64,000 nt of DNA from Saccharopolyspora montiporae (lineage in GTDB: Bacteria > Actinomycetota > Actinomycetes > Mycobacteriales > Pseudonocardiaceae), in assembly GCF_015209505.1 (NCBI RefSeq), contig NZ_JADEYC010000018.1, forward strand, positions 1 to 64,000, written 5' to 3'. Positions within the stretch are counted from its first letter, which is position 1, and every line of letters begins with the position of its first letter. The notes under the pieces were generated by a model. It searched no databases, was not told where the DNA came from, and saw only the letters and a program-made list of their open reading frames with translations. Made by a program: the position numbers and the translations under genes. Positions 918 to 60,111 of the stretch are shown piece by piece.

Positions 918-918
918 C

Positions 919-7504: not shown

Positions 7505-8607
7505 TGTTCACTCGCAGAGTCCGTCTTCAGATCATCGCCTTCGTCGCGATCGCGCTGGTCGGCGTCAGCTACGCCGGCGCCCGCTATGCCGGGCTGGACC
7601 GGATGTTCGGCTCGCGCGGCTACGAGGTCACCGTGGAACTGGAACGGACCGGAGGTGTTTTCGATAACGCCGAGGTCACCTATCGTGGGGTTCCTGTCGG
7701 TCGAGTGGGTGAATTGGACTTGACCAGAACCGGGGTGGAGGTGCCGTTGGACATCGAATCCAGCGCCCCGCCGATCCCGTCCGACGTGGAGGCCGTGGTC
7801 GCCAACCGCTCGGCGGTCGGCGAGCAGTACGTGGACCTGCGGCCGCGGTCCGCCGGCGGTCCGCACCTGCACGACGGCTCGGTGATCCGCTCGGACGCCG
7901 CGCGCATTCCGCTGCCGGTGGAGACGCTGATGACCAACCTCCACGACTTCGCGGGATCCGTCCCGCAGGACTCGTTGCGCACAGTGGTGGACGAACTCGG
8001 CACGGCCTTCCGCGACAACGGCGGCAACCTGCAGACGATCGTGGACACCACGCGCGAATTCACCGACGAGGCCCAGCAGCACGTGCCGCAGACCAAGCGG
8101 TTGCTCGCGGACGGCAAAACCGTGCTGGCCACGCAGAACGAGCAGGGCTCGTCGATCCGGTCGTTCAGCGAGGACCTGGAACTGCTCACCGGCGAGCTGG
8201 AGAAGTCCGACGGCGACCTGCGCTCGGTCATCGACAACGCGCCCCCGGCGGCCCGGCAGGTCAGCGGTGCCATCCGGGAGAACGACCAGTTGACCCCGCT
8301 GCTGGGCAACCTCACCAGCACTTCGCAGCTGCTGGCGGAGAAGACCGACGGTATCGAGCAGATCATGACGCTGTACCCGGCTGTGGTGACCGCCTCGGAG
8401 ACCGTGATGCCGGGCGACGGCACGGCCCACTTCGGTCTGGTGCTCAACGCGTTCGACCCGATGCCGTGCGCCGCCGGGTACGAGGGGACCGACCGCAGGC
8501 CGGGCAACGACATGAACCCGGTGCCGCTGAACACCGACGCGCACTGCGCCGAGCCGCCGGGTAGCGAGACCGGCGTGCGCGGTGCGCAGAACGCCCCCGG
8601 CCAGTAG
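7504..8607 (+). CDS. mceF: MceF: Mce-family subunit
   Basis: The sixth and last Mce subunit has 367 residues, with an N-terminal anchor (about 9-27), an Mce domain with FDNAEVTYRGVPVGRVG, and a long helical segment. Part of the early coding sequence (about 7655-7740) uses more A/T-ending codons than the rest of the operon. Six Mce genes in a row complete the canonical heterohexamer. The stop at 8605-8607 is 13 bases before the next gene, which has its own Shine-Dalgarno sequence. Confidence 0.92.
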   Translation: MFTRRVRLQIIAFVAIALVGVSYAGARYAGLDRMFGSRGYEVTVELERTGGVFDNAEVTYRGVPVGRVGELDLTRTGVEVPLDIESSAPPIPSDVEAVVANRSAVGEQYVDLRPRSAGGPHLHDGSVIRSDAARIPLPVETLMTNLHDFAGSVPQDSLRTVVDELGTAFRDNGGNLQTIVDTTREFTDEAQQHVPQTKRLLADGKTVLATQNEQGSSIRSFSEDLELLTGELEKSDGDLRSVIDNAPPAARQVSGAIRENDQLTPLLGNLTSTSQLLAEKTDGIEQIMTLYPAVVTASETVMPGDGTAHFGLVLNAFDPMPCAAGYEGTDRRPGNDMNPVPLNTDAHCAEPPGSETGVRGAQNAPGQ

Positions 8608-8620
8608 CGGAGAAGGAGCC

Positions 8621-9166
8621 ATGTCCACCGAAACCACCCATTCCGAGTCGGTCCCGGAACCCGCGCAGCGCGGCCGGGTCGGCTGGCTCGTGTCCGCGAT
8701 CCTGGTGGCCGCCCTGCTCGTGTGCGCGGGATTCGGCGGTGCCTGGGCGCTGGCGTCCAACGACGAGGGGATCCAGCGCGCCGCGATCCGCGATGATGCC
8801 CTGGAAGGCGGGCGCAAGGCCGTCGCCGCGTTCAACAGCATGGATCACCGGGATGTAAAGGGCGGGCTGGACCGCTGGGAGGCCAACGCGACCGGGGCGC
8901 TGCGCGAGGAGGTCCGCAACGGGCGGGAACCGTTCGTGCAGCAGATCCAGCAGGCCAAGACGATCAGCAACGCCGAGGTGCTGGACGCGGGCATCACCGA
9001 ACTCGACGACGCGGGCAACAAGGCCACGATGCTCGCCGTGGTGGAGATGACCGTTCAGGCCGAGGACCAGCAGCCGTCCGCGAAGCGGCACCGCTACCAG
9101 GCCGTGCTCACCCGCGAGGGAGAGGACTGGAAGCTCAGCAGGCTGGGCCTGGTCCCGGTCGGCTGA
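8621..9166 (+). CDS. Mce-associated membrane protein (Mas family), first copy
   Basis: The protein has 181 residues from the ATG at 8621, which follows a good ribosome site (GAGAAGGAG). A short hydrophilic N-terminus leads into one transmembrane helix (about 22-44), and then an extracytoplasmic alpha+beta domain of about 130 residues resembling the SnoaL/NTF2-like fold of Mce-associated proteins. Such proteins follow mce operons in mycobacteria and are thought to stabilise the Mce complex. The frame also opens upstream inside mceF, but the Shine-Dalgarno sequence supports this start. Confidence 0.85.
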   Translation: MSTETTHSESVPEPAQRGRVGWLVSAILVAALLVCAGFGGAWALASNDEGIQRAAIRDDALEGGRKAVAAFNSMDHRDVKGGLDRWEANATGALREEVRNGREPFVQQIQQAKTISNAEVLDAGITELDDAGNKATMLAVVEMTVQAEDQQPSAKRHRYQAVLTREGEDWKLSRLGLVPVG

Positions 9167-9212
9167 CCGGGGCCGGACCAGCAGATCCGCACCGTTTTCG
9201 AGGGAGCAGCAC

Positions 9213-10238
9213 GTGTCCAGCAGCAGCCGTGGTTCCGGACCCGACCGGCGGGGAGCCCGTCGCCAGCGCGTCGCCGGGCTGCGCCGACGCCAGCAGCAGC
9301 CCGGCGCCCAGGAGACCGGCGCCCAGGAGACCGATCCGCCCGAACAGCCGGAGGGTCCGGAGCCGGAATCGGCTGAGCCGGAATCGGGACCGGGATCTGC
9401 GGACCGCGGGGCGGAGACCGCCGCGGACGGGTCGGCGGATGCGACCGCGGGCGATGCTCCGGAGTCCGATGCCGCGGCGGAACCCGGCGATTCCGGGGAA
9501 TCCGGTGCGGCCGCGGACGCGGACCTGTCCGCGGACCGGATCGCCCGGTTGCCGGAGGAGGGGCCGGAATCCGACGCCGCCGATCCCGCCGGCGACGAAC
9601 CGACCGCGGCCCGGTCCGATGCCGAGTCCGATGCCGCCGAAGCCGCGGAGCACGAAGCCGCCGAGCACGAAGCCGCGGAAGCCGACGAGTCCGATGCGGA
9701 CGACGACCCGGACGCCGCCGGATCCGCGCGGCGCCCCGGGTTCGGCCTGCGGGTGGCGCTGCTGGCCGCGGCGACCGTGCTGGCCGGGTTCGGCGCCTGG
9801 TTCGCCTACGAGACCGTCGCCCTGCACACCAGCGGTGCCGCCGCCAACGACGCGCTCGTCGACGCGGGCGCGACCAGCGAGGTCAACGGGCAGGTCGGCG
9901 AGGCGGTGACCAAGCTGTTCTCCTACAACTTCGCCGAGCAGGACAAGGCCGATGCGGCGGCGGACGAGCTGCTCGTCGGGCCGGCCGTGGCCAAGTACAA
10001 CGAGCTCTGGGGCGTGCTGCGCGACCAGGCGCCGCAGCAGAAGCTCGTCGTGGACACCTCGGTCAAGTCCAGCGCGGTGACCTGGCTGCAGGGCGACCGC
10101 GCGGAGGTCCTGCTCTACGTCGACCAGAAGGCGACTCGCGCGGGCGACCAGGAGGGGCAGAACGAGCCCGCGCAGCTCACCGTCGGCGCCGAGAAGCACG
10201 GCGACCAGTGGAAGCTCAACCGCATCACGCTGCGCTGA
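9213..10238 (+). CDS. Mce-associated membrane protein with long acidic cytoplasmic N-terminus
   Basis: The protein has 341 residues. The first ~170 are low-complexity, mostly Glu, Asp, Ala, Pro and Ser, with short tandem repeats (AQETGAQET; three near-copies of AEHEA around residues 147-158). A basic stretch and one transmembrane helix (about 176-196) follow, then a Mas-type extracytoplasmic domain ending EKHGDQWKLNRITLR. It is the second Mas gene and closes the operon. GTG at 9213 has GAGGGAGC upstream. The acidic region is presumably cytoplasmic; its role is unknown. Confidence 0.82.
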   Translation: MSSSSRGSGPDRRGARRQRVAGLRRRQQQPGAQETGAQETDPPEQPEGPEPESAEPESGPGSADRGAETAADGSADATAGDAPESDAAAEPGDSGESGAAADADLSADRIARLPEEGPESDAADPAGDEPTAARSDAESDAAEAAEHEAAEHEAAEADESDADDDPDAAGSARRPGFGLRVALLAAATVLAGFGAWFAYETVALHTSGAAANDALVDAGATSEVNGQVGEAVTKLFSYNFAEQDKADAAADELLVGPAVAKYNELWGVLRDQAPQQKLVVDTSVKSSAVTWLQGDRAEVLLYVDQKATRAGDQEGQNEPAQLTVGAEKHGDQWKLNRITLR

Positions 10239-10247
10239 GCCGCCGCG

Positions 10248-10271
10248 GCCGGGCCGGAGTCACGGCCCGGC
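10248..10271. terminator. Bidirectional hairpin between convergent mce operon and CHAT gene
   Basis: A perfect 9-bp stem, GCCGGGCCG paired with CGGCCCGGC around the loop GAGTCA, lies 9 bases after the last mce-operon stop. It overlaps the last codons and stop of the opposing gene. There is no T-run, as is common in high-GC actinobacteria. It could stop transcripts from either side. Confidence 0.6.
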
Positions 10272-13200
10272 GTGCACGTGCGCGGCCCACGCGCAACTGG
10301 CCTCCGGTGCTTCGTTGCGCAGCGCGCGGGTGACGTGGTGCAGCGCGAAAGCCGTGCGTGCGGTGTCGAATTCCCCGTCGTGGTACGTGGTCTCGTACAA
10401 ACCGGCCGGCACGCGCACCGCGCTGTGCTCGTCCACCTCCCACAGCGTTCCCAGGGCGTGCGCGAATCCGGCGAACGACAGCGCGCCGGCCAGCGAGATC
10501 CCGGCCGGTGACGTCTCGTCCGCCGCGGTGGCGCACTGGCCGAGGTAGGCGAACTCGGCGTCCTCCAGCGGCACCTGGCCCAGTTCCACCAGACCGAGGC
10601 TGCGCTGCGGGGCGTCCCGTTCGAGCAGCACGCCGGCCGCGGGCTGCGCCGGGAACTGCGAGCTGGGTTCGCACACGTGCAGCCAAGGGTGCCGCGGCAG
10701 GTCGCGCAGCACGTCCGGCGCGGTCGCCGCCTCCACCGACTTGATCTCGGCCTGCGGCCAGTACTGCGCCAGCACCTGGTTCTGCCGCGGCAGCTCCCGG
10801 CCGATCTGCTGCGCGGAACCCGCCGCCACCAGCGCCGCGCCCGAATCCGGCATCGGGCGCTCCCGAGCGCGCAGCAACGCCCCCAGTGTCGGCGTGTAGG
10901 AGGAGACCACGCGTTCCAGGACGCATTCCCCGGTACGTGCCTGCGCCGCGTGCAACGGGAGGAACGCGGTTTCGCCCATCGCGCTCCACCAGACCCGCGG
11001 CCAGCGCACACCGCCGCCGGGCACGCCGAGGTAGCCCATCCGCTCCAGCACCGGGCGGGCGATGTGCTGCCAGGTCCAGTCCAGCACCGAATCGGCGGTG
11101 CGGTGGTCGTCCTGCTGCGCGGCCGCCAGCAGGGCGGCGCTGCGTTCGGCGGCGCGTTCCGGGCTGGTGTTCGGCAGCGGCACCGTCACGACCCGGCCGC
11201 CGACGAGCACCAGCGCGTCCGAGCGGTACCGGCTGAGGTTGATCATCACCACGGTGCCGTCCGGTGCTCCCTCGGCGAGTTCGCGCAGCCTGCGCGGGCG
11301 CAGGTGGCTGGGCCGCTCGGCGCGGATCTCCTCCAGCAGGCGCTCCCAGGAGCGGGCCAACCGCCCGCGGTCGTCCGGTTCGCCCAGGACCGGTTCGTCG
11401 GCGGGGCGATTCAGCAGCCTGCGCAGCTGCACCGCCTCGTCGGCCAGGTCGGGGTGCGTGCGGTGCAGTTCGCCGAGTTCCCCGCCCGCGGGCAAGAAGT
11501 CGGACAGGATCGCGGAGCGGCCGAACTCCAGCATCTCCATCGCGCGCACCGGCTCGCCCGCCTCCAGCGCCGCGGCCACCGCGTCGGCGGTGATCGTCGC
11601 CCAGCGCCGCTGGGTCGCCGGGGTGGCCACCACGCGCTTGCCGCAGCTGATCAGCGGCAGCAGCTTCAGCGCGCTGCGGAAGGACTCCACGGCTTCGCCC
11701 CACCGGCTCGCCTCCGCGGCCAGCCGGCCGCTCAGGTTGGCCGCACGCAGCCGCTGCTCGGCGGGTGCGGTGGTCTGCTCGGCCGCCTCGGTGAGCACCT
11801 TGCGCGCCCAGCGGTAGTAGCGGCGGCGACCGGTGCGCTGGTGCAGCGCCTGCAGCGCGCGGCCGAGGTTCGTGGCCACCGCCGCCCGGGACGGGATCTG
11901 GTCCGGGATCTCGGCCAGCACCGCGTCGAACAGCTCGACGGCGCGCTCCAGATCGGACTGGCCGTCGCGCAGCCGGAACCGGTGCATGGCGATCAGCCCC
12001 AGCTGGGCGCGGGCGGTGTAGCCGTCGGCACTGCCCTCGCCCGCGGCCTGCGAGACCGCGTGCGCCAGGTCGGCGGCCTGGTCCAGGTCCCCGGTGTCGC
12101 CGGTGTGCTCGTAGCGGTCGATCAAGGCCGTGACCAGCGAGTTGCGCACTGCGGCCGCCTTGTCCGCCGGGCCGGGCGCCTCGGTCGCCGCCTGGCAGGC
12201 CCGCACCCCGGCGTCCAGCGCTGCCTGCTCCGAGCCGTGCACGAAGTGCCTGCGCAGCATGGCCCCGTAACCGGCCAGCGCGAGCGAGCGTTCCGCATCC
12301 GTGCCGGCCATCGACCGGATGGCGGGAGCCAGCGGGTGCAGCACCCGGCGCAGCTGGCTCGGCTCGCCCGTCGCGTCCACGTGCTCGATGGCGGTCGCCG
12401 CGAGGATCCACGCGGTCCGGCCGGTGAGCTGGTGCCCGGGTTCGAGCACGCCGAGCAACCCGATCATCTCGTTGACCGAGGCGTTGAGGTCGGACAGCGA
12501 TCCGCTGTGCCGGAAGCGCAGCCGCAGCGCGTTGGCCAGGTGGCACAGCGCCGAGCGCCGCGGCTCCCCGTCGGCCAGCGCCCCGGCGCCGGAGCCGAGA
12601 TGCTTGATCCCCTCGTCCAGGTCCTCGGCCGATCCGTCCCGCTCGTAGCGGCGCAGCAACGCGGCACCGAGGTTGATCAGCAGTTCCGAGGTGGCCGCCT
12701 CGCGCGCCGGGGAGATCCGCGCGGCCTCGCGGAACACCTCGATCGACTCGCCGTCCGAGTCCGCGTCGTCGGCCAGCCGGGCGTGCAGCTTGAGCGCGTT
12801 GGCCAGCCGGATCAACGTCATCGCGCGCCGGTGGTCGCGGCGTGGGGTCCGCTCGACGGTCTCCCGCGCCACCCGGATTCCTTCGGCCGCGGTGCCGACG
12901 TCGCCCGCCTTGCCGGCGTACTCGCCCAGCGCCAGCACCAGGTTGCAGCGATACAGCACCAGGTCCTGGTCGTCGGCGTGCGCAGTGGCCGAGGCCGAGC
13001 GGTAGTAGGAGATCGCGTCTTCGAGATCGACCAGGTCCCCGCTGCGCAGGTGGGTCAGCTGGGCAGCGCTGCCCAGGTTGTTGAGCACCCCGGCCCGGGC
13101 GGGATCGTCCTCGCGCAGCACGCTGGCGGTCACCCGGAAGACCTCGGTCACCCGGGGAAGCTGCCCGAAGTCCAGCGTGCTGACGATCTCGTTCATCGTC

Positions 13201-13598
13201 GCGATGGCCTCGGCGTAGCGCTGCTCGGTGGACGCCCGCGAATCGGAGCCGGCCTGCTGCGGGGCCTGCTGGGCTGCCGGGGACTGCTGCGCCGCCGGGG
13301 ACTGCTGGGCGGGCGCCGCGGTCGGCGGGGGTGCGGGTGCCTGCGGTCCGCGCTGCCCCCGGGGCGCGGGAGGCTCCGCGCCCTGCGCTGCGGCGTCCTG
13401 CCCGAACGGGTCGTGCCCGGCCGCGCCGCGGGGGTCGTGCTGCGGATGCGGCTGCTCCTGCGCCTCGTCCGGCTCTCCCAGCTCGTCGTTGGAGAACCAG
13501 CTGGAACCGGTGCCGCCCTGGTCGCCGGTGCCGCGTCCACCGGTCCAGCGCTGCAGCCTGCCGAACCGTTCGCTGGCGCGGCTCGCGTCGTCCGTCAT
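10260..13598 (-). CDS. TPR-repeat protein with C-terminal CHAT (caspase-like) domain
   Basis: The protein has 1112 residues. The N-terminal ~130 are disordered, Gln/Pro/Ala-rich. A long all-helical region of TPR-type repeats (about 130-700) follows, and then a C-terminal CHAT domain (about 780-1105). CHAT domains belong to the caspase/separase clan, with a His-Cys dyad. Candidates here are His974 (in WLHVCEP) and Cys1022 (in YLGQCATA), each at the end of a hydrophobic strand as expected. The family consensus around the Cys is more often S-A-C, so activity is uncertain. The start ATG has GGGAGAAG upstream. No obvious substrate gene lies beside it. Confidence 0.85.
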   Translation of the reverse strand: MTDDASRASERFGRLQRWTGGRGTGDQGGTGSSWFSNDELGEPDEAQEQPHPQHDPRGAAGHDPFGQDAAAQGAEPPAPRGQRGPQAPAPPPTAAPAQQSPAAQQSPAAQQAPQQAGSDSRASTEQRYAEAIATMNEIVSTLDFGQLPRVTEVFRVTASVLREDDPARAGVLNNLGSAAQLTHLRSGDLVDLEDAISYYRSASATAHADDQDLVLYRCNLVLALGEYAGKAGDVGTAAEGIRVARETVERTPRRDHRRAMTLIRLANALKLHARLADDADSDGESIEVFREAARISPAREAATSELLINLGAALLRRYERDGSAEDLDEGIKHLGSGAGALADGEPRRSALCHLANALRLRFRHSGSLSDLNASVNEMIGLLGVLEPGHQLTGRTAWILAATAIEHVDATGEPSQLRRVLHPLAPAIRSMAGTDAERSLALAGYGAMLRRHFVHGSEQAALDAGVRACQAATEAPGPADKAAAVRNSLVTALIDRYEHTGDTGDLDQAADLAHAVSQAAGEGSADGYTARAQLGLIAMHRFRLRDGQSDLERAVELFDAVLAEIPDQIPSRAAVATNLGRALQALHQRTGRRRYYRWARKVLTEAAEQTTAPAEQRLRAANLSGRLAAEASRWGEAVESFRSALKLLPLISCGKRVVATPATQRRWATITADAVAAALEAGEPVRAMEMLEFGRSAILSDFLPAGGELGELHRTHPDLADEAVQLRRLLNRPADEPVLGEPDDRGRLARSWERLLEEIRAERPSHLRPRRLRELAEGAPDGTVVMINLSRYRSDALVLVGGRVVTVPLPNTSPERAAERSAALLAAAQQDDHRTADSVLDWTWQHIARPVLERMGYLGVPGGGVRWPRVWWSAMGETAFLPLHAAQARTGECVLERVVSSYTPTLGALLRARERPMPDSGAALVAAGSAQQIGRELPRQNQVLAQYWPQAEIKSVEAATAPDVLRDLPRHPWLHVCEPSSQFPAQPAAGVLLERDAPQRSLGLVELGQVPLEDAEFAYLGQCATAADETSPAGISLAGALSFAGFAHALGTLWEVDEHSAVRVPAGLYETTYHDGEFDTARTAFALHHVTRALRNEAPEASCAWAAHVHAGP

Positions 13599-14187
13599 CC
13601 GTACTTCTCCCGTGGGCGTCTCGCTGCCGGTGGCCTCGACGCGGCCGGGATCCGCCGAAGCGCCCCGGAGCCGTGTCCCGCTACCGGCGCTGCCGGGACC
13701 CCCGGCAGCCCGTGCACGCGGGCAAACCTACTCGTACCGGGCCCGGTGCAGCGGCGGTTGCCGGAAATCGATGCTCCGGCCTGCGCGACCGCTCGGCCGA
13801 CGGGCCGAAGGAACCCCGCCCATCGGCTGCAGCAGCACGTGCCGCGGGCCGCGCGCCGGGACCCCGGCGGAGGGCTCCGGAACCCGCCGCGGAGCGGAGT
13901 GGAGCGATCGCCCCGCGTGGTGGAGGACGCGCCGAACGCCGGGGCCGCGAGCGGGCTCGGAGGCGGTTCGCGAGCCCGCTCCAGCACCCGCCCGAGACCC
14001 CGCTCCGACGCGCGGGAGAGCCCCCGTATCAAGCCGCTGAGCAGCGATAACGCCCTCGATGCCGGTTACGTGTGGTGATCGTGTTCTCCGCCACGAGAGT
14101 GATCGAGGTGCGATCTCTTGACTGTCGGCTTTCTCGGGTTCACTCTGGTCGTCGACACGGGGCTGGGCCGCCATCTGGTGGGCCCCC
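13599..14187. other. Divergent intergenic region upstream of rpoB, no gene seen
   Basis: This GC-rich spacer separates the start of the minus-strand CHAT gene from the rpoB promoter. The open frames crossing it are extensions of shadow frames from neighbouring genes and show no ribosome site or recognisable product. It presumably holds the CHAT gene promoter at its left edge. A TTGACT at 14118-14123 has no convincing -10 partner. I see no RNA gene or repeat in it. Confidence 0.5.
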
Positions 14188-14216
14188 TCGACAGCTGGCG
14201 TGGTTCCAGTTAGACT
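14188..14216 (+). promoter_or_regulatory. rpoBC promoter (-35 TCGACA, -10 TAGACT)
   Basis: TCGACA at 14188-14193 and TAGACT at 14211-14216 are separated by 17 bases, a good match to a primary-sigma promoter. Transcription would begin near 14222, at the start of the pyrimidine-rich segment TTTGCGCTGCCCTC. I recall similar sequence opening rpoB leaders in other actinobacteria, but could not check this. Confidence 0.65.
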
Positions 14217-14221
14217 GCTAC

Positions 14222-14385
14222 TTTGCGCTGCCCTCTTTCCGTCTGCCCAACACCGGGCCGTAGGATCGTGGGCGCAATTGCACCCTTGACAGCTGTGTTA
14301 GCGGGCGCGGCTGGTCAGCTCCTCCGAGCAGGCCGGTTACCGCTGGCGCGGCTGTAGCCAGTTCAGAGTCCCGGAAGGACGCATC
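14222..14385 (+). other. 5' leader of the rpoBC mRNA
   Basis: About 160 bases separate the predicted start site from the rpoB TTG codon. The leader begins with TTTGCGCTGCCCTC and contains no open frame with a ribosome site other than rpoB itself. A TTGACA at 14286-14291 lies inside it without a matching -10. The length leaves room for post-initiation control of rpoB. Confidence 0.5.
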
Positions 14386-18002: not shown

Positions 18003-21914
<3,912 letters not shown>

Positions 21915-21988: not shown

Positions 21989-22096
21989 CGTGTTCGGGGC
22001 CTTTTCGTCAACCGGTGGACGGCTCGCGTGGAATCGGGCAAGCGCCGTTGCGGCGGGGCCGGGTCCAGTAGCGTGCGGGGCGTTGGTGTCGCCGAG

Positions 22097-22912
22097 GTGT
22101 TGGGCTGGTTGGAGGTTCTGGTGAGCGCTGCGGGTGGTGCGCCGGTGCCGCGGGAGTTGCGGCATGTTGCGGACGTGGTGCAGGAGTGGGGGGGTCCGCG
22201 CGGCTGGCGGGTGGCGCGGGATGTGGACAAGGCTGTGCTGCAGCAGTTCCCGGGTACGCCGTTCCACGCGTTTCGGCGCAAGCAGGTTCCGGTGGTGGCG
22301 TCGGGTTCGGTGGATGGCGCGCCTGCGGCGTTGCTGCAGGTGGATTTCACGGTGAAATACCAGAGCAACGGTGGTTCGACGTATTCGTCGGCGACGGGCG
22401 GCATGATGTCGACCGGGAAGACGAAGAAGGAGACGGAGTACCGGGCGCCGCTGGTGGTGGAGTTGCCGGCGCCGGTTCCGAAGTTGGAGTTCGTGCTCAA
22501 GCGGGATCCGCTCGACGAGATCCTGCATGTGGCAAAGCTGAATCGGTGGTTCCGGCTGCGTACGGGCGCGCTCGGGACCGGAGTCTCGTACTTGGACAGG
22601 ATGTACCACCTGTCTGGTTCCTCGGTGGAGTATGTCCGTTCTGTATTTACTCCGGAGCGGGCGGAGTGGTTGTACACGGACGCCAAGGGGCCGCTCGAAG
22701 ATGTGGTGCTCGGAGATGTTCGTTTTCGGCTCTCTGGGCGGCGGTTGATCGTGTGGTCCCGTCGAAACTTTCGCGATCCTGCGGTGATTGACGGGTTGAT
22801 CCGGGTGGCGCAGGAGATTCGGAGTTGGATTCCGCAGCAGGCGTTCCAGGATCCTGCGGGTGTGCAGGCGGATCAGGGCAATGTGCCGTTGTCCCAGGTG
22901 CAGCTGACGTAA
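22097..22912 (+). CDS. Uncharacterised soluble protein, tandem paralog 1
   Basis: The protein has 271 residues from the GTG at 22097, the position matching the only possible start of its paralog. In-frame GTGs at 22073 and 22028 would add 8 or 23 residues, and none has a strong ribosome site. No signal peptide or membrane helix is visible. The order is a helical N-terminus, PRGWRVARD, a beta-rich middle with a Gly/Ser loop (SNGGSTYSS) followed by TGKTKKE, a conserved VVELPAPVP strand and a final helix IRSWIP. The architecture recalls actinobacterial DUF3137-like proteins; this is weak. The TGKTKK stretch is not a P-loop context. Codon use is less GC-biased than in rpoC. Confidence 0.7.
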   Translation: MLGWLEVLVSAAGGAPVPRELRHVADVVQEWGGPRGWRVARDVDKAVLQQFPGTPFHAFRRKQVPVVASGSVDGAPAALLQVDFTVKYQSNGGSTYSSATGGMMSTGKTKKETEYRAPLVVELPAPVPKLEFVLKRDPLDEILHVAKLNRWFRLRTGALGTGVSYLDRMYHLSGSSVEYVRSVFTPERAEWLYTDAKGPLEDVVLGDVRFRLSGRRLIVWSRRNFRDPAVIDGLIRVAQEIRSWIPQQAFQDPAGVQADQGNVPLSQVQLT

Positions 22913-22939
22913 CGTGCGGGCGTTGGTGGTGTCGCCGAG

Positions 22940-23749
22940 GTGCTCGGCTGGTTGGAGGTTCTGGTGAACGCTGCGGGTGGTGCCCCGGTGCCCGAGGAGT
23001 TGCGGCATGTTGCGGATCTGGTGCAGGAGTGGGGAGCTCCGCGTGGCTGGCGGGTGGCGCGGGATGTGCCGAAGCAGGTGTTGAAGCAGTTCCCCGGCCA
23101 GCCGTTCCACGAGTTCCGCCGCAAACAGGTGCCCGTGCTGGCTGCGGGAGCGGTGGATGGCGCGCCTGCCGTGGTGCTGCAGGTCGACTTTACGATCAAG
23201 TACCAGAGCAGCGGTGGTTCGACGTCTTCGTCGGCGGGCGGTATGCGGTCGACCGGCAAGACCAAGAAGAAGACGCACCCCAGGACGGCGATCGTTGTCG
23301 AACTGCCGGCACCGGTTCCGGAAGTCGTGCTGATGCAGGCCCGCGACGTGCTGGACGACGTGCTGCACCTGTTCAAGCTGAACCGGACGTTCCAGATGTT
23401 TCGCGGACCGTCGAAGGGGACGGGCTCGGAGCGGTTGGATGCGCTCTACCGGGTCGAGGGCGAGTCGGAGGAGCACATCCGCTCGGTGATCAATCCGGAC
23501 CGGGTGCAGTGGCTGTACAACAAGAATGCCGGCCCCTACCCGGGTGTGCGGTTGGAGCAAACCTGTTTCCGATTGACAGGGCGTACTTTGGTGCTCTGGG
23601 TCAATCGTCCTGTCTTCGATCCTGCGGTTCTCGATGGCCTCGTCGCCACCGTGCAGGAGGTTCGGCGGTGGATCCCGAACAACGTCTTCCAGTCCACTGA
23701 TACGGGTTCCGGGTTCCGAGTCAGCAGCTTGCAGCTTCCGGTTTCGTGA
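22940..23749 (+). CDS. Uncharacterised soluble protein, tandem paralog 2
   Basis: The protein has 269 residues and is a full-length paralog of the preceding gene, sharing GWLEVLVNAAGGAPVP, PRGWRVARD, KQFPGQPFHEFRRKQVPV, TGKTKKK and the VVELPAPVP strand. An in-frame TAA (22910-22912, the stop of copy 1) precedes it, so GTG at 22940 is the only usable start. No Shine-Dalgarno sequence is evident, and translation probably depends on readthrough of ribosomes from copy 1. It is convergent with the ESX-substrate-like cassette. Function is unknown. Confidence 0.7.
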   Translation: MLGWLEVLVNAAGGAPVPEELRHVADLVQEWGAPRGWRVARDVPKQVLKQFPGQPFHEFRRKQVPVLAAGAVDGAPAVVLQVDFTIKYQSSGGSTSSSAGGMRSTGKTKKKTHPRTAIVVELPAPVPEVVLMQARDVLDDVLHLFKLNRTFQMFRGPSKGTGSERLDALYRVEGESEEHIRSVINPDRVQWLYNKNAGPYPGVRLEQTCFRLTGRTLVLWVNRPVFDPAVLDGLVATVQEVRRWIPNNVFQSTDTGSGFRVSSLQLPVS

Positions 23750-23790: not shown

Positions 23791-24996
23791 TCACCAGTCC
23801 AACTGGCCTTCGATGGTCTTGTCGGACGGTACGTCGCTGAATCCGCCGCCCTTCGCCTGTTCTTCCAATTGATCGGCGGCGGTGTCGAGCCCGCTACCGA
23901 CCTGGTTCAGTCCGGATTTTCCCCAGTCAGCCGCACCGTATGAGGGCGTGTTCTGTGAGGTTGTCCCGTGGATCAACTCACCATCAGATTTGATCTGCGT
24001 GGTTGAGCCGTCCTCGTTCTGAACGGCGGCCTTGTTGGTGTCGTCGAGGGTGTAGCCGGCTTCTTCTGCTCGTTCTTGGTTCTGTTTGGCGACGTGGTCT
24101 CCGCGCGATTTGACCTCGGTGAGCCCGTCGTTCGTATTGCCGGCGGCTTCGCTACCGTCCTGGGCGTCGCTGTTCCCGCCCTTCCCGTCGGCGCCGTCGG
24201 TGATCTGCTGAACGCTCTCGGCGATCCTGATGGAGTCCAGCACCGCCTTGATCGCGGTGATCGCGAGCTGGACCATCTCGATGGTCTTGACGACCTTCTT
24301 GACCTTCTCGGCGGTGCGTGCGCAGGTGATGGCGGCTTCGACGGTGGTGGCTGCGCCGGCTGCCGCTGTCGAACCACCGGCGGTGGCCGGTGCCGTGGCG
24401 AGTGCCGTCAGCCAGGTCGCGACGGCCCAGGTCAGGAACTCGGCGAGGATGCCCTTGATGACGCCCTCGGCGGCTTCCATCATGGTGGAGCTCATCTGCA
24501 GCAGCTCGGACAGGTTGTGCGCCTGACCGGCCGTGTTCTGCACCCCGTCGATGAACTCGCCCATCTTGGTGCGCATCGCGTCCGCGGCTTGGCCTTCCCA
24601 CTCCGCGAGGTCGCCGTCGAGGGTCTGGGTCAGCTTCTCCGCGAGTTGTTCGAGGTCCTGGCTGACTTCCGAGAACGCTTTCGCGCCCTGGGTCAGTGCT
24701 TCGCTGTCCCCGGTGACCAACTGGATCGCATCACGGACCGGGGTCACGAAGTCCAGGACGAACTCCACGCCGGTGCCGGCGAGGAAGGTGATCGGGTCGG
24801 CTGCGCAGCTGGCGGCGTCCGAGAGGAAGCTCTCGATGTCACCCTTGGCGGCTTCCACGTCGCCCTTGGACAGGTTCTCGGCGCCGCCGATGACGTCCTT
24901 GACCAACTTGATGTCGCCGAACGCCGAGGTGTCGACCTGATCGGCAGTCATGCTGAGCGCGGCGTTGTCCTGGGCGGCTTCGAGGTTGCCGGTCAT
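23791..24996 (-). CDS. WXG-domain secreted protein candidate (EspB/PPE-like ESX substrate)
   Basis: The protein has 401 residues. The N-terminal ~190 are helical with a WEG tripeptide at 133-135 between two amphipathic helices (LTQTLDGDLAEWEGQAADAMR), the hallmark of a WXG100-type hairpin. Hydrophobic helices (about 178-205) and an Ala-rich stretch follow. The C-terminal ~135 residues are hydrophilic, Gly/Asp/Gln-rich, with a YxxxD motif (YTLDD, 315-319). No toxin motif is recognised. ATG at 24996 has GGAGGAGG upstream and overlaps the previous stop (ATGA). The set resembles mycobacterial EspB with EspC/F and EspL. Confidence 0.72.
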   Translation of the reverse strand: MTGNLEAAQDNAALSMTADQVDTSAFGDIKLVKDVIGGAENLSKGDVEAAKGDIESFLSDAASCAADPITFLAGTGVEFVLDFVTPVRDAIQLVTGDSEALTQGAKAFSEVSQDLEQLAEKLTQTLDGDLAEWEGQAADAMRTKMGEFIDGVQNTAGQAHNLSELLQMSSTMMEAAEGVIKGILAEFLTWAVATWLTALATAPATAGGSTAAAGAATTVEAAITCARTAEKVKKVVKTIEMVQLAITAIKAVLDSIRIAESVQQITDGADGKGGNSDAQDGSEAAGNTNDGLTEVKSRGDHVAKQNQERAEEAGYTLDDTNKAAVQNEDGSTTQIKSDGELIHGTTSQNTPSYGAADWGKSGLNQVGSGLDTAADQLEEQAKGGGFSDVPSDKTIEGQLDW

Positions 24997-25346
24997 CCGC
25001 GGCCACCTCCTCCGCCGCCCGCGATGTTGTCCACGTTGCCGAGCAGGGCGCTCATCGCGTCCGCCGCCCGCCGATCGGTGTCCTGGTAGTCGCGCCCGGC
25101 GTCGCCGATCTCGGTGCCCGCCTTGGACAGGCCCTCGCAGACCTGGTCCATGTGCTCGGTGAACGTGTCCAGCAGTTCGCGGTACGAGCCGTACACGGTG
25201 GCCAAACCGAGAAGGCCCCAGGAGATCTCGGGCACCTCGGCCTCGGTCGCCTTCTGCTTGATGGAGTCGGCATCGGAGCCGATCGATTCGATCTTGCCCC
25301 CGCAGCCGGTCAACGAGTCCGCGGTCGCGCGGTATCCGCCGCCCAT
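24993..25346 (-). CDS. Small helical ESX-secreted protein (EspC/WXG100-like)
   Basis: The protein has 117 residues, the size and helical-hairpin pattern of WXG100/EspC-type proteins. The hairpin turn carries W43-G44 (SWGLLGL) rather than a strict WXG. A C-terminal type VII export signal, YxxxD, is present as Y87-QDT-D91, followed by a short helix and a Gly-rich tail. ATG at 25346 has GGGAGGGA upstream and shares a base with the preceding stop (TGATG). Partner pairing with the 401-residue protein would fit ESX heterodimers; this is inference. Confidence 0.75.
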   Translation of the reverse strand: MGGGYRATADSLTGCGGKIESIGSDADSIKQKATEAEVPEISWGLLGLATVYGSYRELLDTFTEHMDQVCEGLSKAGTEIGDAGRDYQDTDRRAADAMSALLGNVDNIAGGGGGGRG

Positions 25347-25804
25347 CAGCGGTCCCTCCCGCCGTCCAGGAAGGAATCGGGCATCTCGTCGTCGAGGTCG
25401 TCGACGACCGGCGGGGGCGCGGTACGGGTGGACGTCGACGTCGGGTCCTGCATCTCCTGCTGGGTGCGCAGCACCCGCTCGCGCACATCGCTGTCCGGCA
25501 GGAACTCCTGCACCACGTCGGCCTGTTGGCGCGCGGCTTCGGCGACGGCCTCGCGGAGCGTGGTCATGATCGCGCCGGAGAGCTGGCTCGGCGATCGGCG
25601 CAGGGCGTCCTGGTTCAGCTGGATGTCGGTGACCCCGCCCGGTCCGGCGACCACGGTGATCGACCGGTCGTCCGACGCGGTGCGGACCTCGATCCCACCG
25701 AGTTGTTCCTTCATCTCGCCGAGCCCGCTCATCTGCTGCTCGACCCGGCGCCCAGCCTCTTTCAGCGACTCCAGCTTCTGGTTCAGCTGGTCCAAGTCGG
25801 TCAT
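25346..25804 (-). CDS. YbaB/EbfC-family protein (EspL-like)
   Basis: The protein has 152 residues. The first ~100 match the YbaB/EbfC fold: an N-terminal helix (LDQLNQKLESLKEAGRRVEQQ), a beta sheet with GIEVRTASDDRSITVVAGPGGVTDIQLN split by turns, and a C-terminal helix. A Pro/Thr-rich acidic tail follows. Stand-alone EbfC proteins bind DNA, but members in ESX loci (EspL, Rv3880c) act with secreted Esp proteins. This gene heads a three-gene overlapping set whose other members look like ESX substrates, which favours the EspL-like role. The start at 25804 follows AGGGAAACTTC. Confidence 0.75.
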   Translation of the reverse strand: MTDLDQLNQKLESLKEAGRRVEQQMSGLGEMKEQLGGIEVRTASDDRSITVVAGPGGVTDIQLNQDALRRSPSQLSGAIMTTLREAVAEAARQQADVVQEFLPDSDVRERVLRTQQEMQDPTSTSTRTAPPPVVDDLDDEMPDSFLDGGRDR

Positions 25805-25933: not shown

Positions 25934-26350
25934 TCAGCTCTCCAATTCGGCCAGCGCCTTGCGGACCCGTTCCACCTCGGCTTCCAGCTCGGCCAGCTTG
26001 GCTTCCTGCTGCTGGCGGGCGGTGCTGAGCACCTCCTCGATGGTTTCCGAGATGTCGGTGTGCAGTTCCGCCGCCGCCTTGGACACCGCCGACGCCGGGA
26101 CCTGCAGGCCCTGCACGACGCGCTTGCCGGAATGCATCAGGTCGGCCTGCCACTCGCCGTCCGCGGTCCCGGTCACGGTCAGCGTCAGTTCCACGGTCCG
26201 GGTTTTCTTCGCGGTGCTCTTGGTGCGTTTCTTCTTCGGGGCGGATTCCTCGGCCTGCTCGGTGCCTTCCGCCGCGGTCTGCTGCCCGTCCGGCGATGCC
26301 GCGGACTGCGGGGTGGTGCTCTCGTCGGTGCCGGTCTGTTCTTCGGTCAA
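25934..26350 (-). CDS. Uncharacterised protein with Lys-rich linker and C-terminal coiled coil
   Basis: The protein has 138 residues from a TTG at 26350 that follows AGGAGAGTGAG. The first ~40 residues are acidic and disordered. A basic patch (KKKRTKSTAKKTR) follows, then a short beta-type domain (VELTLTVTGTADGEWQADL...GKRVVQGLQVP) and a helix ending in a coiled coil (EAKLAELEAEVERVRKALAELES). The basic patch could contact nucleic acid or a membrane. I do not recognise the family. It is divergent from the ADP-ribosylglycohydrolase-like gene. Confidence 0.65.
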   Translation of the reverse strand: MTEEQTGTDESTTPQSAASPDGQQTAAEGTEQAEESAPKKKRTKSTAKKTRTVELTLTVTGTADGEWQADLMHSGKRVVQGLQVPASAVSKAAAELHTDISETIEEVLSTARQQQEAKLAELEAEVERVRKALAELES

Positions 26351-26679
26351 CTCACTCTCCTGTTCACGGCCGAACCACCAGGGTAGAACACGTGTTCCCC
26401 GGAGTCCGGTGTGCCGCGCCGGGAATGCGCGGTGGCCGGGTGGCGCGCTCACCTGCGCTGCGGATCGCCGCGCGCGCTCGCCCGGGCGGGGGACGCGGAC
26501 GGCCCGGTGATCGGGTGCGGCAACATTGCCGGTGCGTGGTGCCGCCCGCGGGCGCGCGGGAGGGGACTTCGCGAGGTGGTCGAGACAGGGGCCGGCGCGC
26601 CGGCCGAGAGCGGTCCCGGGCCGCCGGGATCCGGACTGGACCGGGCCGGCGGTGCCCGGTGACCGAGAGGGAGTTCGCG
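26351..26679. other. Divergent intergenic region with a 12-bp palindrome
   Basis: This spacer lies between the TTG of the coiled-coil gene and the ATG of the ADP-ribosylglycohydrolase-like gene. Apart from the palindrome at 26386-26397, it is featureless GC-rich sequence. The long frame through it lacks a ribosome site until GAGAGGGAG before 26680. Promoters for both genes should lie here, but I cannot place their boxes with confidence. Confidence 0.5.
26386..26397. promoter_or_regulatory. Perfect palindrome GAACACGTGTTC, possible operator (LexA-box-like core)
   Basis: The 12-bp palindrome fits the core GAAC-N4-GTTC of Gram-positive SOS boxes. It lies 36 bases upstream of the minus-strand TTG start, in a divergent promoter region. 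The flanking bases (A and C) do not match the full actinobacterial consensus TCGAAC-N4-GTTCGA, so another dimeric regulator is equally possible. Confidence 0.35.
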
Positions 26680-29600
26680 ATGACCGACGCACAGCCGAGC
26701 GGGCGCGGGGCCGCGCAACCCGCTTGGACCGACCGCTTCCGCGGCGCGATGCTCGGCGGCGCTGTGGGTGACGCGGTCGGCTCCGGTGTCCGGGCGCTTC
26801 CACTCGCCGGGATCCGCAGCTGCTTCGGACCGCCCGGAATCCGGGGCTACGTCCCGGTTTTCGGTAAGCGCGGTGCAGCCGGCGACATCAGCCAGCTCAC
26901 GGTGTTCACCCTGGACGCGCTGCTGCGCGCGAAAGCGGCCAACCCGGGAGGGGACGCCTGGTTGCCCACCGAGTATGTGGGCACCAACTACCTGCGTTGG
27001 CTGCACACGCAGGGCGTTCCGTGGGAGTACGCGATGTCCGCGCAGCTGAGCCGGGAACCGCGTCCGGCCGGTTGGTTGCTGGAGCGCGCGGAGTTGCACT
27101 CCACCCGCAATCCCGGCGGTCCGGCGCTGGGCATGGTCGGCAAGATGGCCGAACGGTTCCCGATCGGTCCGGACGGCGCGCTGCGCCCGCACTCTGCGGC
27201 GGACGGTCTCGCCGCGTGCGCGGCCTGGGCCGCTCCGGCGATGGTCTGGTCGCCGACGCCGGAGATCGTGCACGCCACCGCCGCCGCTACCGCGAACCTG
27301 TTCACCTCAGGGCCGAACGCGCTCGGCGCAGCGGGTCTGCACAGCGATGTGCTCGCCCAGTTGCTGCGCGGTGCCCGGCTCTGGGACGCGGTCACCGCCG
27401 CAGACCTCAACCGGCTCGGCAGTGCTTACCGGGTGAGCCGGGTGCCCGCTGACGTGCGGCGCACCGTGCACGCTGCGATGTTCCTCGGTCAGCGCGGGCT
27501 CCCGGTCCGCCCCGAGGACCTGGACGTGGAGTTCGACGTGCACGACGAGCCGGGCGAGCTCGGCATCGCGCTGGCGGCGGTGAGCTCGACCCGCACGTTC
27601 GCGGACGCGGTGTTGGCGGCGGTGAACCACTCCGCGGACAGCAGCGTCACCGGCGCGCTCGCCGGTCAGCTCGCCGGGGCGATGCACGGTCCGGGAAGCA
27701 TTCCGCAGGAATGGCTCGACGAGCTGGAGCTGCGCGAGCCGATCGAGATCCTCTGCCAGGACGCGGGTGAGGCGTTCGCGCCGCAGCGGCCCCGCTGGGC
27801 CGAGCGCTACATGCCCAGCGGGGCGGATGCGCAGCGGGAACTGCCGTCCGCTCCCGGGCGCACCGTCGAGGGGTCCGCGGAGCGCACGATGGTGCTGCCC
27901 GCGATCGGCGGCGCGTCCGTCCGGGACGGGGAGCTCGGGCAGCACCGGTCGGAATCCGTGCCCGTGGACGAGCCGTTCCCGACCGGCCCGATCCCGATCG
28001 TCGCCGCGGAGCAGGCCCCGGACGCGGTGGCGGAGACCGCCGCGGAGACGACGGCGATCTTCCCCGCGGTGTCCGATCAGGAGCCCGAACCGGCTCCTGC
28101 CGCCGAACCGGCTCCCGCTTCCGAACCGGCTCCCGCCCCCGACTCGTCGAGTTTGGCCTCCGATTCGGACCCAGCCCCCGAACCGGCTCCGGCGCGGGAC
28201 CCGGAGGCCGATGCCGGAGCGCACCGCTCCCCGTCCGCGCGGGAGCGGCCGCGCCACCAGCCCGCGACCTCGTGGTTGGGCACCGAGGACAATCCCGCCC
28301 CCTCATGGTTGTCCGCACCCGGCAGGCCCGCCTTCGCCGCGTTCATCGAACAGACCGCCCAGCGGTCTGCGGAGGACGGACCGGTCGACTCGCCGGCGGA
28401 TTCGGCTCCCGGCGCGGTGAACCGGGACGGCGCGTCCGAAGCGGTCGGCGACGTGTCCCGGGCCGACGATGCCGCGGACTCGCCGGACCTGCGTCGTGTC
28501 GAGGAGTTCGCGCCGCCCGCCGCGCAGCCGGACGACCGGTGGCCGGATGCCGCGCCCGATCCGGCTGCCGCGAAGCCGGGCGAGACGGCGGACCCGACCT
28601 GGCTCCCGGACTCCGAGGGCGCTGACCCGACCGAGCCCGACTCTGCGGACCGGTTCGGGTCGGAGCCGGACGAGGAGTTGCCCGAGCTGGTGGACCTGCC
28701 CGACGTGCCGGTGCCGTCCGGGTGGGAACCGCTGGACACGGTCGCCACCGCCGAAGCCGATCTCCCGGAGTCCGCGTCCGCGGCGCGGCCGGAGCAGTAC
28801 GCACCGGACGGCGAGCCTGCGGCGGAACCGCAGCGCGAGCCGGTCGACCTGCAACCGCCTCCCCGGTCGCCCATCGACCTGGCCCCGGAGTCCGGAACCG
28901 TCGATGATGCCGCCGCGCCCGCGGATGTTTCGGCCGAAACCGGCGCGGAGTACGAGCAGGGCGCCGGGGAGCAGGCCGACCCGGTCGGGGACGTTCCGGA
29001 TGCTCCCGAGGTCTCCGGCGACCCGGACGACCCTGCCGGTGCCGAAGCCCCGGGCGGTGTGGAATTTCCCAGTGGTGCCGGTTTTCCCGACGCTGCGGAC
29101 GATGTGGACAGACCTCTCGGCGCGGAGGATCCCGGTGGTGCCGAGGTTCCGGTCGGTGCGGAGTTCCCCCGTGCTGCCGAGCTCGCCGGTCCGCCCGAGT
29201 TCGCCGGTGACACCGAGTTCCCCGGTGCTGCGGAGCCTTCCGGCGATACCGAGGCACCGGACGATGCCGGTGCCGGTGCCGCGACCACCCGCTCCGCCGA
29301 CCCCGAGGCCGCGGACGGGTCGGCCGAGGCCGCCGCGCAGGACTCCGCACAGGTCGCCGTGCGCCCACCGCGCGGCGAGCACGCCAAGGACGACGGCCCC
29401 GGCGCGGGCGCTCCCTCGTCGACCGAGCGCGTGCTGGGCTGTCTGCTGGCCGGAGCGCTCGGCGACGCGCTCGGCGCCGAGCCGGAGGGGCGCGCCGCGG
29501 ACGGGACCGGAGGCGACGAGGACGGCCTGCGTGACCCGGGGGCGGGATACATGCTGAGCGCCGACGCCCGCCTGGCGCTGTTCACGGCCGAGGGGCTCAT

Positions 29601-30639
29601 CCGCGGCAGCGTCGCGGGCCGCACGCTCGGCAGCGGCGATCCGTTGCCGGAGGTGCAGCTGGCCTACCAGCGGTGGTTGCACACCCAGGGGGTCGAGTGG
29701 TCGGCGGCGGCCGGTCGGTTCGGCGTCGAGTACGCCGCACCGGATGGCTGGTTGATCGAGGTGCCGGGCATGTTCGCCGCCCGCGCGCCGGAACGGGCGG
29801 TGTTCGACGCGCTGTCCGGTTTCGGGTCCGGCGGGCCTGCGGGATCGCTCACCGAGCGGATCAATGACGCCGCGGGCGGCGGTGGTGTGGTGCGCGCGGT
29901 GCCCGCGGCGCTGTGGTCCGCCGACCCGGCCGAGGTGTTCCTGCTCGGCGCGCGCACCGCCGCGCTCACCCACTCGGATCCGGCCGGCTACCACCCGGCG
30001 GGGGCGCTGGCGGTGATCGTGCAGCAGGCCTTGCTCGGGCGCGGTCTGGACGACGGGGTCTGGCTGGCGTTGCAGGTCCTGGAGACCTGGGAGGGCAGTG
30101 AGCAAACCGCTGCGCTGCTGAAAGCGGCCGTCGAGCTCGCGGAGGAGGGGGTGCCCGATGCGCAGCGCCTGACCGAGGTGCTCGGTGGCGGCGGAACCGG
30201 GCAGCAGGCGCTGGCCATCGCGGTGTGCGCGGCGCTCGCGGCGGATGCGGACGTGCAGCTCGCGCTGCGCACCGCCGCGCAGCACGACGGATCCGGCGCG
30301 GCGGCCGGCGCGATCTGCGGCAGCATCGCGGGAGCCCTGCACGGGGTGGCCGCGCTGCCGGTGGACTGGCTGGCCGAGCTGGAGCTGCGCGATGTCGTCC
30401 AGCAGGTGGCGCTGGACTGCGTCGCCGAGTTCGGGGTCGCGCGATCCGGCGAGGCGCGGTCCGGGGGAGCCGAGCTGCCCGCGGACGAGGACTGGCAGGA
30501 GCGCTACCCGGTGCGCGAACTGCCGCCGGAGCCGGTCCGGCGGCAGGCCTCGGACGTGGGGGCCGTCGATGATCCCGGCGGATTCCCGGCGCCCAAGCCC
30601 GCGCCGCGCCGCGTCGTCTACGAGGGGGACAACGCCTGA
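26680..30639 (+). CDS. Tandem ADP-ribosylglycohydrolase-like protein with 550-residue disordered linker
   Basis: The protein has 1319 residues. An ARH-type domain lies at about 17-360 (GGAVGDAVG at 26-34), a Pro/Glu/Ala-rich low-complexity linker at about 365-910, and a second ARH-type domain at about 914-1270 (LAGALGDALG). ARH enzymes bind two Mg ions through a T-D-D-T motif and a late D-x-D motif. Here the first is GDIS (68-71) and SADA (960-963), and the last is ADSSV (319-323) and HDGSG (1202-1206). Metal ligands are therefore missing in both halves, suggesting a pseudoenzyme or binding protein. ATG at 26680 follows GAGAGGGAG. Confidence 0.8.
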   Translation: MTDAQPSGRGAAQPAWTDRFRGAMLGGAVGDAVGSGVRALPLAGIRSCFGPPGIRGYVPVFGKRGAAGDISQLTVFTLDALLRAKAANPGGDAWLPTEYVGTNYLRWLHTQGVPWEYAMSAQLSREPRPAGWLLERAELHSTRNPGGPALGMVGKMAERFPIGPDGALRPHSAADGLAACAAWAAPAMVWSPTPEIVHATAAATANLFTSGPNALGAAGLHSDVLAQLLRGARLWDAVTAADLNRLGSAYRVSRVPADVRRTVHAAMFLGQRGLPVRPEDLDVEFDVHDEPGELGIALAAVSSTRTFADAVLAAVNHSADSSVTGALAGQLAGAMHGPGSIPQEWLDELELREPIEILCQDAGEAFAPQRPRWAERYMPSGADAQRELPSAPGRTVEGSAERTMVLPAIGGASVRDGELGQHRSESVPVDEPFPTGPIPIVAAEQAPDAVAETAAETTAIFPAVSDQEPEPAPAAEPAPASEPAPAPDSSSLASDSDPAPEPAPARDPEADAGAHRSPSARERPRHQPATSWLGTEDNPAPSWLSAPGRPAFAAFIEQTAQRSAEDGPVDSPADSAPGAVNRDGASEAVGDVSRADDAADSPDLRRVEEFAPPAAQPDDRWPDAAPDPAAAKPGETADPTWLPDSEGADPTEPDSADRFGSEPDEELPELVDLPDVPVPSGWEPLDTVATAEADLPESASAARPEQYAPDGEPAAEPQREPVDLQPPPRSPIDLAPESGTVDDAAAPADVSAETGAEYEQGAGEQADPVGDVPDAPEVSGDPDDPAGAEAPGGVEFPSGAGFPDAADDVDRPLGAEDPGGAEVPVGAEFPRAAELAGPPEFAGDTEFPGAAEPSGDTEAPDDAGAGAATTRSADPEAADGSAEAAAQDSAQVAVRPPRGEHAKDDGPGAGAPSSTERVLGCLLAGALGDALGAEPEGRAADGTGGDEDGLRDPGAGYMLSADARLALFTAEGLIRGSVAGRTLGSGDPLPEVQLAYQRWLHTQGVEWSAAAGRFGVEYAAPDGWLIEVPGMFAARAPERAVFDALSGFGSGGPAGSLTERINDAAGGGGVVRAVPAALWSADPAEVFLLGARTAALTHSDPAGYHPAGALAVIVQQALLGRGLDDGVWLALQVLETWEGSEQTAALLKAAVELAEEGVPDAQRLTEVLGGGGTGQQALAIAVCAALAADADVQLALRTAAQHDGSGAAAGAICGSIAGALHGVAALPVDWLAELELRDVVQQVALDCVAEFGVARSGEARSGGAELPADEDWQERYPVRELPPEPVRRQASDVGAVDDPGGFPAPKPAPRRVVYEGDNA

Positions 30640-58344: not shown

Positions 58345-58518
58345 CCGTTCGGTCTCTCCCCCTCGCTGGTAGGTGCGGCACACGGCTCGCGAGCAGGTGT
58401 CTGGCGAGCAACCGCGCGATGAGAATACTGATGGACTCGGCCGAACCGCACCCATTCGGCATCTCTCTGCGGCTATCCTGCGAAACGGTACCTCGGACGG
58501 GAGAGCTGTAGGCGAAGA
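58345..58518. promoter_or_regulatory. Divergent promoter region between eccE and eccB
   Basis: The 174-base spacer has TATCCT at 58474-58479 as a possible -10 for eccB. TATTCT, read on the minus strand at 58422-58427, is a possible -10 for eccE. Neither has a convincing -35 box. These are the only A/T-rich patches in the spacer. Confidence 0.4.
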
Positions 58519-60105: not shown

Positions 60106-60111
60106 TCCGGT

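Follow-up and report, generated by a model that had tools for sequence, protein, structure and literature searches.

A tandem pair of DUF3137-like genes linked to an ESX-type substrate cassette beside rpoC in Saccharopolyspora montiporae

We analysed the first 64,000 nucleotides of contig NZ_JADEYC010000018.1 of Saccharopolyspora montiporae (the window, of 64 kb), in which two open frames, dupA and dupB, lie head to tail 3' of rpoC and face three overlapping genes, ybaB152, wxg117 and wxg401, of the kind found among ESX secretion substrates. The dup gene and this cassette make up a module that genomes of the genus either have or lack as a unit, and DUF3137-like genes accompany related cassettes in other genera. 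The pair is a lineage-specific duplicated form that lacks the membrane anchor of many of its relatives. We take the pair to be a partner of the cassette and propose, putting the chance that we are right at about one half, that it is an adaptor or chaperone for the WXG protein, which is presumed to be exported, and meets it on the cytoplasmic side. The genes concerned are the following.

22121-22912, + strand: dupA, copy 1, DUF3137-like protein of predicted TtfA fold; GTG start, with TTG 22109 or GTG 22097 possible
22964-23749, + strand: dupB, copy 2, C-terminal tail diverged from the family consensus; GTG start, with TTG 22952 or GTG 22940 possible
23791-24996, - strand: wxg401, WXG100/PPE-like protein of 401 amino acids (Pfam), presumed ESX substrate, ending LDW
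23794-23850, - strand: conserved C-terminal tail of wxg401, ending LDW, from comparison with 60 loci
24993-25346, - strand: wxg117, small WXG100-like protein (20.7 bits, below the Pfam cut-off of 27.3)
25346-25804, - strand: ybaB152, YbaB-like protein (32.0 bits, cut-off 25.5)

Results

The pair and the cassette occur together

The dup gene is present in 12 of 22 genomes of the genus, and the same 12 have a wxg401 ortholog of full length (E no higher than 1e-118); two of the ten genomes without dup gave wxg401 matches of only 22% and 29%. The order rpoC, dup and then, convergent to them, wxg401, wxg117 and ybaB is kept in all 11 relatives from the genus and in G034, which belongs to another genus. 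Where the module is missing, in ten genomes, the right border gene comes next after rpoC; eight of these have 140 to 1362 bases between the match ends, and the remaining two have other sequence there, of 3.6 and 4.8 kb. The border genes are these.

18003-21914, + strand: rpoC, identified by recognition, the module's left border; conserved in all genomes checked
25934-26398, - strand: conserved right border gene, without an NCBIfam match, following rpoC in the ten module-less genomes of the genus

In the family Pseudonocardiaceae, dup has matches at E up to 0.001 in 15 of 297 genomes. The 13 strong ones (5e-31 or better) are the same 13 that carry a full-length wxg401, and in them dup sits at the cassette; the other two are weak and fall outside that set (G220, E 2.3e-4; G039, E 7.9e-4). 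In another 114 genomes of the family there are wxg401-like matches with E of 1e-30 or below; among the matches listed, these are partial and 31-44% identical. As dup and the cassette are adjacent, their joint loss within the genus could be passive, and it is for this reason that the results from other genera count as independent evidence. At one locus of the genus (L027 in G010, 10218-14366) two tandem WXG/YbaB cassettes stand beside a single dup gene, with the match to the second wxg401 split in two.

Partner genes at cassettes of other genera

For the other genera we took 60 of the 114 non-orthologous genomes with wxg401-like matches, one locus each, mostly from the better-scoring matches. 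In profile searches a DUF3137-like frame follows the long WXG gene on the same strand at 53 of these 60 loci. The profiles used, C1 and C2, were built from open reading frames of the same loci, 48 of the 53 being cluster members and the other five (L087, L088, L095, L133 and L145) being picked up in the search. Of the 53, 44 fall within the position window; in the other nine the stop-to-stop frame starts further upstream, its first start codon lying 0-5 bases after the stop of the long WXG gene. An immediate same-strand frame of 150-500 amino acids was present at 50 of 60 loci, and 45 of these 50 frames have a hydrophobic segment near the N-terminus. Lysine and arginine are more numerous after than before the segment in 46 of the 47 frames in which it is clear (means 4.40 vs 0.40), from which the domain is predicted to lie inside the cell; L156, which has no DUF3137-like match, is counted in both the 50 and the 47. 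Two or more consecutive partner genes occur at at least six loci (L088, L097, L147, L159, L160 and L168). While rpoC lies within the examined stretch at 35 of the 60 loci, it does not at the other 25, and the association recurs in other genera with a different gene order and orientation.

A converse search, of 150 genomes with two partner profiles at E up to 1e-8, returned 105 places for one profile and 18 for the other, which we divided into strong and weak at E 1e-20, a threshold of our own choosing. Strong places lie with cassette genes in 37 of 40 cases for the first profile and in 18 of 18 for the second (55 of 58 together), the three that do not being G028, G159:C44 and G112. Of these places 8 for the first profile and 10 for the second are, on our reading, themselves members of the profile alignments, and when they are excluded the counts are 29 of 32 and 8 of 8. 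By coordinates, a listed wxg401-like match is no more than 3 kb away from 32 of 40 and 17 of 18 strong places; five and one further places were found to lie with cassette genes on inspection of the locus, that in G071 having only the small WXG and YbaB genes beside it. Cassette genes are absent from 46 of the 65 weaker places and found at 19: 11 near listed wxg401-like matches by coordinates, three in WXG loci (L175, L176 and L181) and five at WXG matches, which are weak in two cases (L212 and L221). When 48 generic DUF3137-like loci were checked, 43 had no WXG match (a WXG match being present in 0 of 11 in a hand-picked control and in 5 of 37 in the remainder). The proportions of 55 of 58 strong and 19 of 65 weaker places show the partner branch to be bound to the cassette and the wider DUF3137-like family not to be. 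The scattering of homologs away from ESX-type neighbours, against which the original prediction had staked itself, is therefore not seen for the dup branch, for which the linkage is strongly supported, but it is seen for many of the generic relatives.

Of the 48 weaker loci that were checked, 16 have a YbaB-like match in their vicinity, in most cases with no WXG match. At L188, L193, L198, L211, L213, L215, L216, L218, L222, L224 and L230 a generic DUF3137-like gene has a YbaB-like match close by and no WXG match, and at L188 and L198 the two frames overlap. The pairing of YbaB and DUF3137 is perhaps of older origin.

The dup proteins are relatives of DUF3137

Neither dupA nor dupB matched any Pfam or NCBIfam family at E up to 1, and neither had a direct match to PF11335 (DUF3137) at this threshold or reached its gathering score. 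When the dup family was compared as a profile (A3) with an actinobacterial set (A8), the two aligned over 215 columns at 99.5% (E 9e-23), the reversed control giving 0.2%. All eight members of A8 match PF11335 at E up to 1, the best at 7.2e-8, and the first reaches 26.2 bits against a cut-off of 26.1. A3 also directly matches several generic DUF3137-like members, with E down to 2e-14. For the two partner clusters from other genera the alignment with A8 scores 98.5% and 93.5%, as against no more than 2.2% for the reversed controls and for 20 shuffled ones; earlier comparisons made with few partner sequences were weak (A3 with A6, 11%; A3 with A7, 1%). By homology to PF11335-matching proteins, the dup proteins are placed in the DUF3137 superfamily on sequence grounds. 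The genes had originally been described as unrecognised, with a profile search of both proteins suggested; the description holds for single-sequence scans of Pfam and NCBIfam and gives way under comparison of profiles, through A8, and of folds. A single-protein query of the genome contigs found no match and an alignment query found nine loci. Two candidate identities were set aside: Cas5b, a weak PADLOC match to copy 2 (39 residues, 14.6 bits) that we put down to chance, and TcpQ (Pfam, in three relatives), which covers 22-25 residues and is below its cut-off.

The model predicted for dupA (predicted local distance difference test, pLDDT, 76; predicted template modelling score 0.77) has a single Foldseek match below E 0.001, the mycobacterial protein TtfA (6T84, E 1.4e-4), with which it superposes over 172 of 178 residues with a Z of 16.8 and a root-mean-square deviation of 2.7 Å. 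A search of Protein Data Bank chains by hmmsearch with A3, A8 and A9 did not return 6T84 at E up to 10. EspG is absent from the structure matches listed for the model. The next matches are to a subunit of the human ribosome-translocon complex (7tm3_4 and 6w6l_7, Z 9.7 and 9.5), presumably CCDC47, and possibly reflect a common arrangement only.

Anatomy and history of the tandem pair

As originally described, the two copies encode diverged soluble proteins and lie head to tail directly after rpoC: they are 62% identical over 256 amino acids and are the only matches of the dup family in the genome (E up to 0.01; assembly 92.5% complete). Their less biased codon use is also confirmed, G+C at third codon positions being 0.78 and 0.80 in the two copies compared with 0.95 in rpoC, 0.84 in wxg401 and 0.90-0.92 in the next two cassette genes. 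In a tree of 16 family members dupA and dupB are sisters with support of 100/100, which assigns the duplication to the Saccharopolyspora lineage of the window. The tandem pairs of G014 and G013 are not sisters in this tree and so represent older duplications. In G014 (L019, 8995-9765 and 10055-10852) the tandem copies come from two older clades and have near-identical leaders, which suggests an old duplication from which relatives later lost one or other copy. In G007 (L023, 9827-10568) a second copy is split by a frameshift into two partial matches in different frames, through decay or sequencing error. The non-sister pairs and this frameshifted copy indicate that gain and loss of copies recur. 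Over best pairs dup identity has a mean of 50% as against 69% for wxg401, and it is the lower of the two in 75 of 78 genome pairs.

Neither window copy has an N-terminal membrane helix, the top 19-residue hydropathy means of 1.22 and 1.62 both falling at residue 64, inside the domain. Some relatives in the genus have a long hydrophobic N-terminal region, with four segments in G009, G010 and G013, and G012 and G034 have a similar region by eye. Around WIPPAAYQDPAAAQADQQHVPL the family has a conserved C-terminal motif, which dupA keeps in part.

The starts given above were placed by eye against the relatives, whose start regions read GGGAGGTGGATC-ATG-AAC or GGGAGGCGGG-ATG-AAC. Both copies have GGAGG-TTCTG-GTG, which leads to GTG 22121 for dupA and GTG 22964 for dupB, and the starts proposed earlier sit within what is, again by eye, the ribosome site of the relatives; in the model of the longer dupA reading residues 1-17 have pLDDT below 50. 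The signals concerned are these.

22111-22115, + strand: GGAGG, ribosome-site-like sequence of dupA
22954-22958, + strand: GGAGG, ribosome-site-like sequence of dupB
22069-22074, + strand: TAGCGT, -10-like by eye, upstream of dupA
22910-22915, + strand: TAACGT, -10-like by eye, upstream of dupB, overlapping the dupA stop codon

With its start moved to GTG 22964, copy 2 has a ribosome-site-like sequence, which it had been thought to lack, and is separated from the dupA stop by 51 bases; the 27 bases given previously are true of GTG 22940 measured from the TAA at 22910-22912. A TANNNT box precedes each copy, like the box ahead of the relatives' genes by eye, and by this resemblance each copy may have a promoter of its own.

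The facing protein, its conserved tail and the ESX core genes

That the pair faces an ESX-like cassette is borne out by wxg401, which scores above both relevant cut-offs (WXG100 PF06013, 36.2 bits against 27.3; PPE, 27.6 against 26). A WXG100-family protein therefore stands beside dup, and the genome has ESX core genes, most of them within the window some 32 kb from the cassette (57043-63362).

57043-58455, - strand: EccE (TIGR03923)
58519-60105, + strand: EccB (TIGR03919)
60508-61932, - strand: mycosin MycP (TIGR03921)
61917-63362, - strand: EccD (NCBIfam)

The best EccC match lies after EccD and beyond the window, at contig positions 65956-67743. EccC is above its cut-off in 22 of 22 genomes of the genus, so that presence of the secretion machinery does not follow that of the cassette.

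The C-terminus of the long WXG proteins is conserved. Among 60 such proteins from other genera (L084-L103 and L133-L172) leucine stands at position -3 in 59, aspartate at -2 in 52, and 56 end in L[DEN]-hydrophobic. This ending is found at 52 of 53 loci with a partner and at 4 of 7 without one (Fisher p 0.004, which ignores relatedness), and two of the three partner-less exceptions are near-identical. The tail is a possible export or docking signal. A Pfam scan of wxg401 and one ortholog found no toxin domain in either.

Two other regions of the window were noted. Next to the cassette border a large frame (26806-30636) has ADP-ribosylglycohydrolase-like matches below cut-off and long acidic, proline-rich stretches, and upstream of rpoB a gene run (126-10235) resembles, by eye only, a YrbE/Mce transport operon.

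Discussion

A model for the dup proteins

We propose a model in which the dup domain would bind wxg401, alone or paired with wxg117, on the cytoplasmic side of the membrane, and would hold it or deliver it to the ESX translocon. The YbaB-like protein would be another helper in the handling of wxg401, and dup would take the place, as adaptor or chaperone, that EspG has for PPE proteins. Binding, export and function are inferred here. Cargo proteins with a shared tail, together with a dedicated protein placed on the cytoplasmic side, would suit an adaptor or chaperone handing its cargo to the translocon. The conserved tail may instead address the translocon itself.

Several observations weigh against this model. 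No DUF3137-like partner was detected at 7 of the 60 cassettes of other genera, which suggests that some such substrates do not need one, and many DUF3137-like genes lie away from WXG genes. The partner clusters compare only weakly with A3 directly (57.6% and 14%), so that dup is joined to the partners by way of A8. In both window copies the N-terminal hydrophobic segment is missing, and in dupB the C-terminal motif has been lost. A shared fold does not by itself show a function; the type III secretion system (T3SS) chaperones among the structural matches have Z of 5-6, within the range flagged as common arrangement, and were dropped as fold relatives, no claim resting on them, and the model of wxg401 is unusable (pLDDT 36). 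Duplication, rapid divergence and the optional nature of the module suit immunity about equally well.

The original prediction had offered immunity or chaperone as a single, undivided suggestion. Under immunity, wxg401 would be an ESX-exported antibacterial protein that dup, anchored in relatives, neutralises in the producer, with extra copies widening protection. This would account for the recurrent tandem copies (in the window, G014, G013 and G007, and among the partners at the six loci named above), for the lower conservation of dup than of wxg401 and for the optional nature of the module, and a 2012 polymorphic-toxin survey provides a precedent in an actinobacterial WXG-linked domain, Ntox38, with one dedicated partner, Imm56 (PMC3482391). 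However, no toxin domain was found in the two long WXG proteins scanned, the C-terminus is conserved at 56 of 60 loci where a polymorphic one would be looked for, and in the genus of the window dup is convergent with the cassette and outside its operon. The Ntox38 signature PXhhG occurs within the last 60 residues of only 1 of the 60 long WXG proteins, and we did not adopt Ntox38/Imm56 as the identity of wxg401 and dup. That no toxin domain was found and that the C-terminus is conserved make us lean towards the adaptor or chaperone half of that suggestion and regard immunity as unlikely, although the duplication and divergence suit it too.

If dup were instead an envelope factor, it would aid a membrane transporter or the export of envelope lipids as TtfA does, the ESX cassette being a neighbour in the same process. 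The predicted fold, for which TtfA is the only close match, points this way, as does the existence of DUF3137-like genes away from WXG genes; we nevertheless find the idea improbable, the partner branch following the cassette at many loci, including the 25 without rpoC in the examined stretch, the profiles finding no sequence match to the 6T84 chain and the window copies lacking an anchor. Poorest of all are the prospects of dup as a passenger of unrelated function, carried with the cassette by position only: adjacency in the genus would let one deletion remove both, but the association turns up again at further loci and in further genera, where the order and orientation of the genes differ, which makes this idea very hard to credit.

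The adaptor model can be widened, at a level of confidence that we would call doubtful, to a class of T7SS (type VII secretion system) accessory proteins. Throughout Pseudonocardiaceae, YbaB-WXG-WXG cassettes would then have a fourth, cassette-specific component in membrane-anchored adaptors of DUF3137/TtfA fold, which would recognise the shared tail of the exported WXG protein (approximately G-x-D-Q-S-x3-T-x3-L-D-hydrophobic) in a role like that of EspG, and TtfA would have branched off from the same fold towards lipid transport. One branch of the DUF3137 superfamily is here tied to a defined secretion cassette. The branch thereby acquires a partner open to testing, the WXG/PPE-like protein, and perhaps a general role, that of docking cargo at an exporter in the membrane. 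If true, this would complete the gene list of a common type of ESX cassette for actinobacteria outside the mycobacteria. Among the open-access titles and abstracts listed in our searches, none describes an association of DUF3137-like genes with ESX cassettes, or DUF3137 in secretion.

Comparison with known systems

Among DUF3137 (PF11335) relatives, dup resembles the PF11335-matching proteins of A8, with which its profile aligns over some 215 columns; it differs in that the window proteins have no PF11335 match of their own and in that most generic loci have no WXG gene. TtfA is needed for transport of trehalose monomycolate (PMC6593404, PMC10171966), and the first of these reports describes an N-terminal membrane helix and a C-terminal part reported as cytoplasmic, has the protein bind MmpL3 and says that it lacks known domains (PMC6593404). 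The predicted fold of dupA, and the N-terminal helix and predicted inside domain of the anchored partners, are like this mycobacterial MmpL3 accessory protein; unlike it, dup is found with ESX cassettes, has no detectable sequence match to it and, in the window copies, has no helix.

EspG is a helper and chaperone of PPE proteins, and EspL is YbaB-like. With these chaperones dup shares the place of a dedicated helper gene beside WXG/PPE-like proteins, in a cassette that has a YbaB-like gene, but the dup proteins have no match at E up to 1 to PF14011, which we take to be the EspG family. EspL has been proposed as a chaperone for EspE, EspF and EspH (PMC6319747). To the toxin-immunity pairs of the T7SS, Ntox38 with Imm56 and those to which the immunity proteins TsaI and EsaG belong, dup is alike as a dedicated and sometimes tandem-duplicated partner beside a WXG protein, from which it is set apart by a wxg401 in which no toxin domain or polymorphic tail was found.

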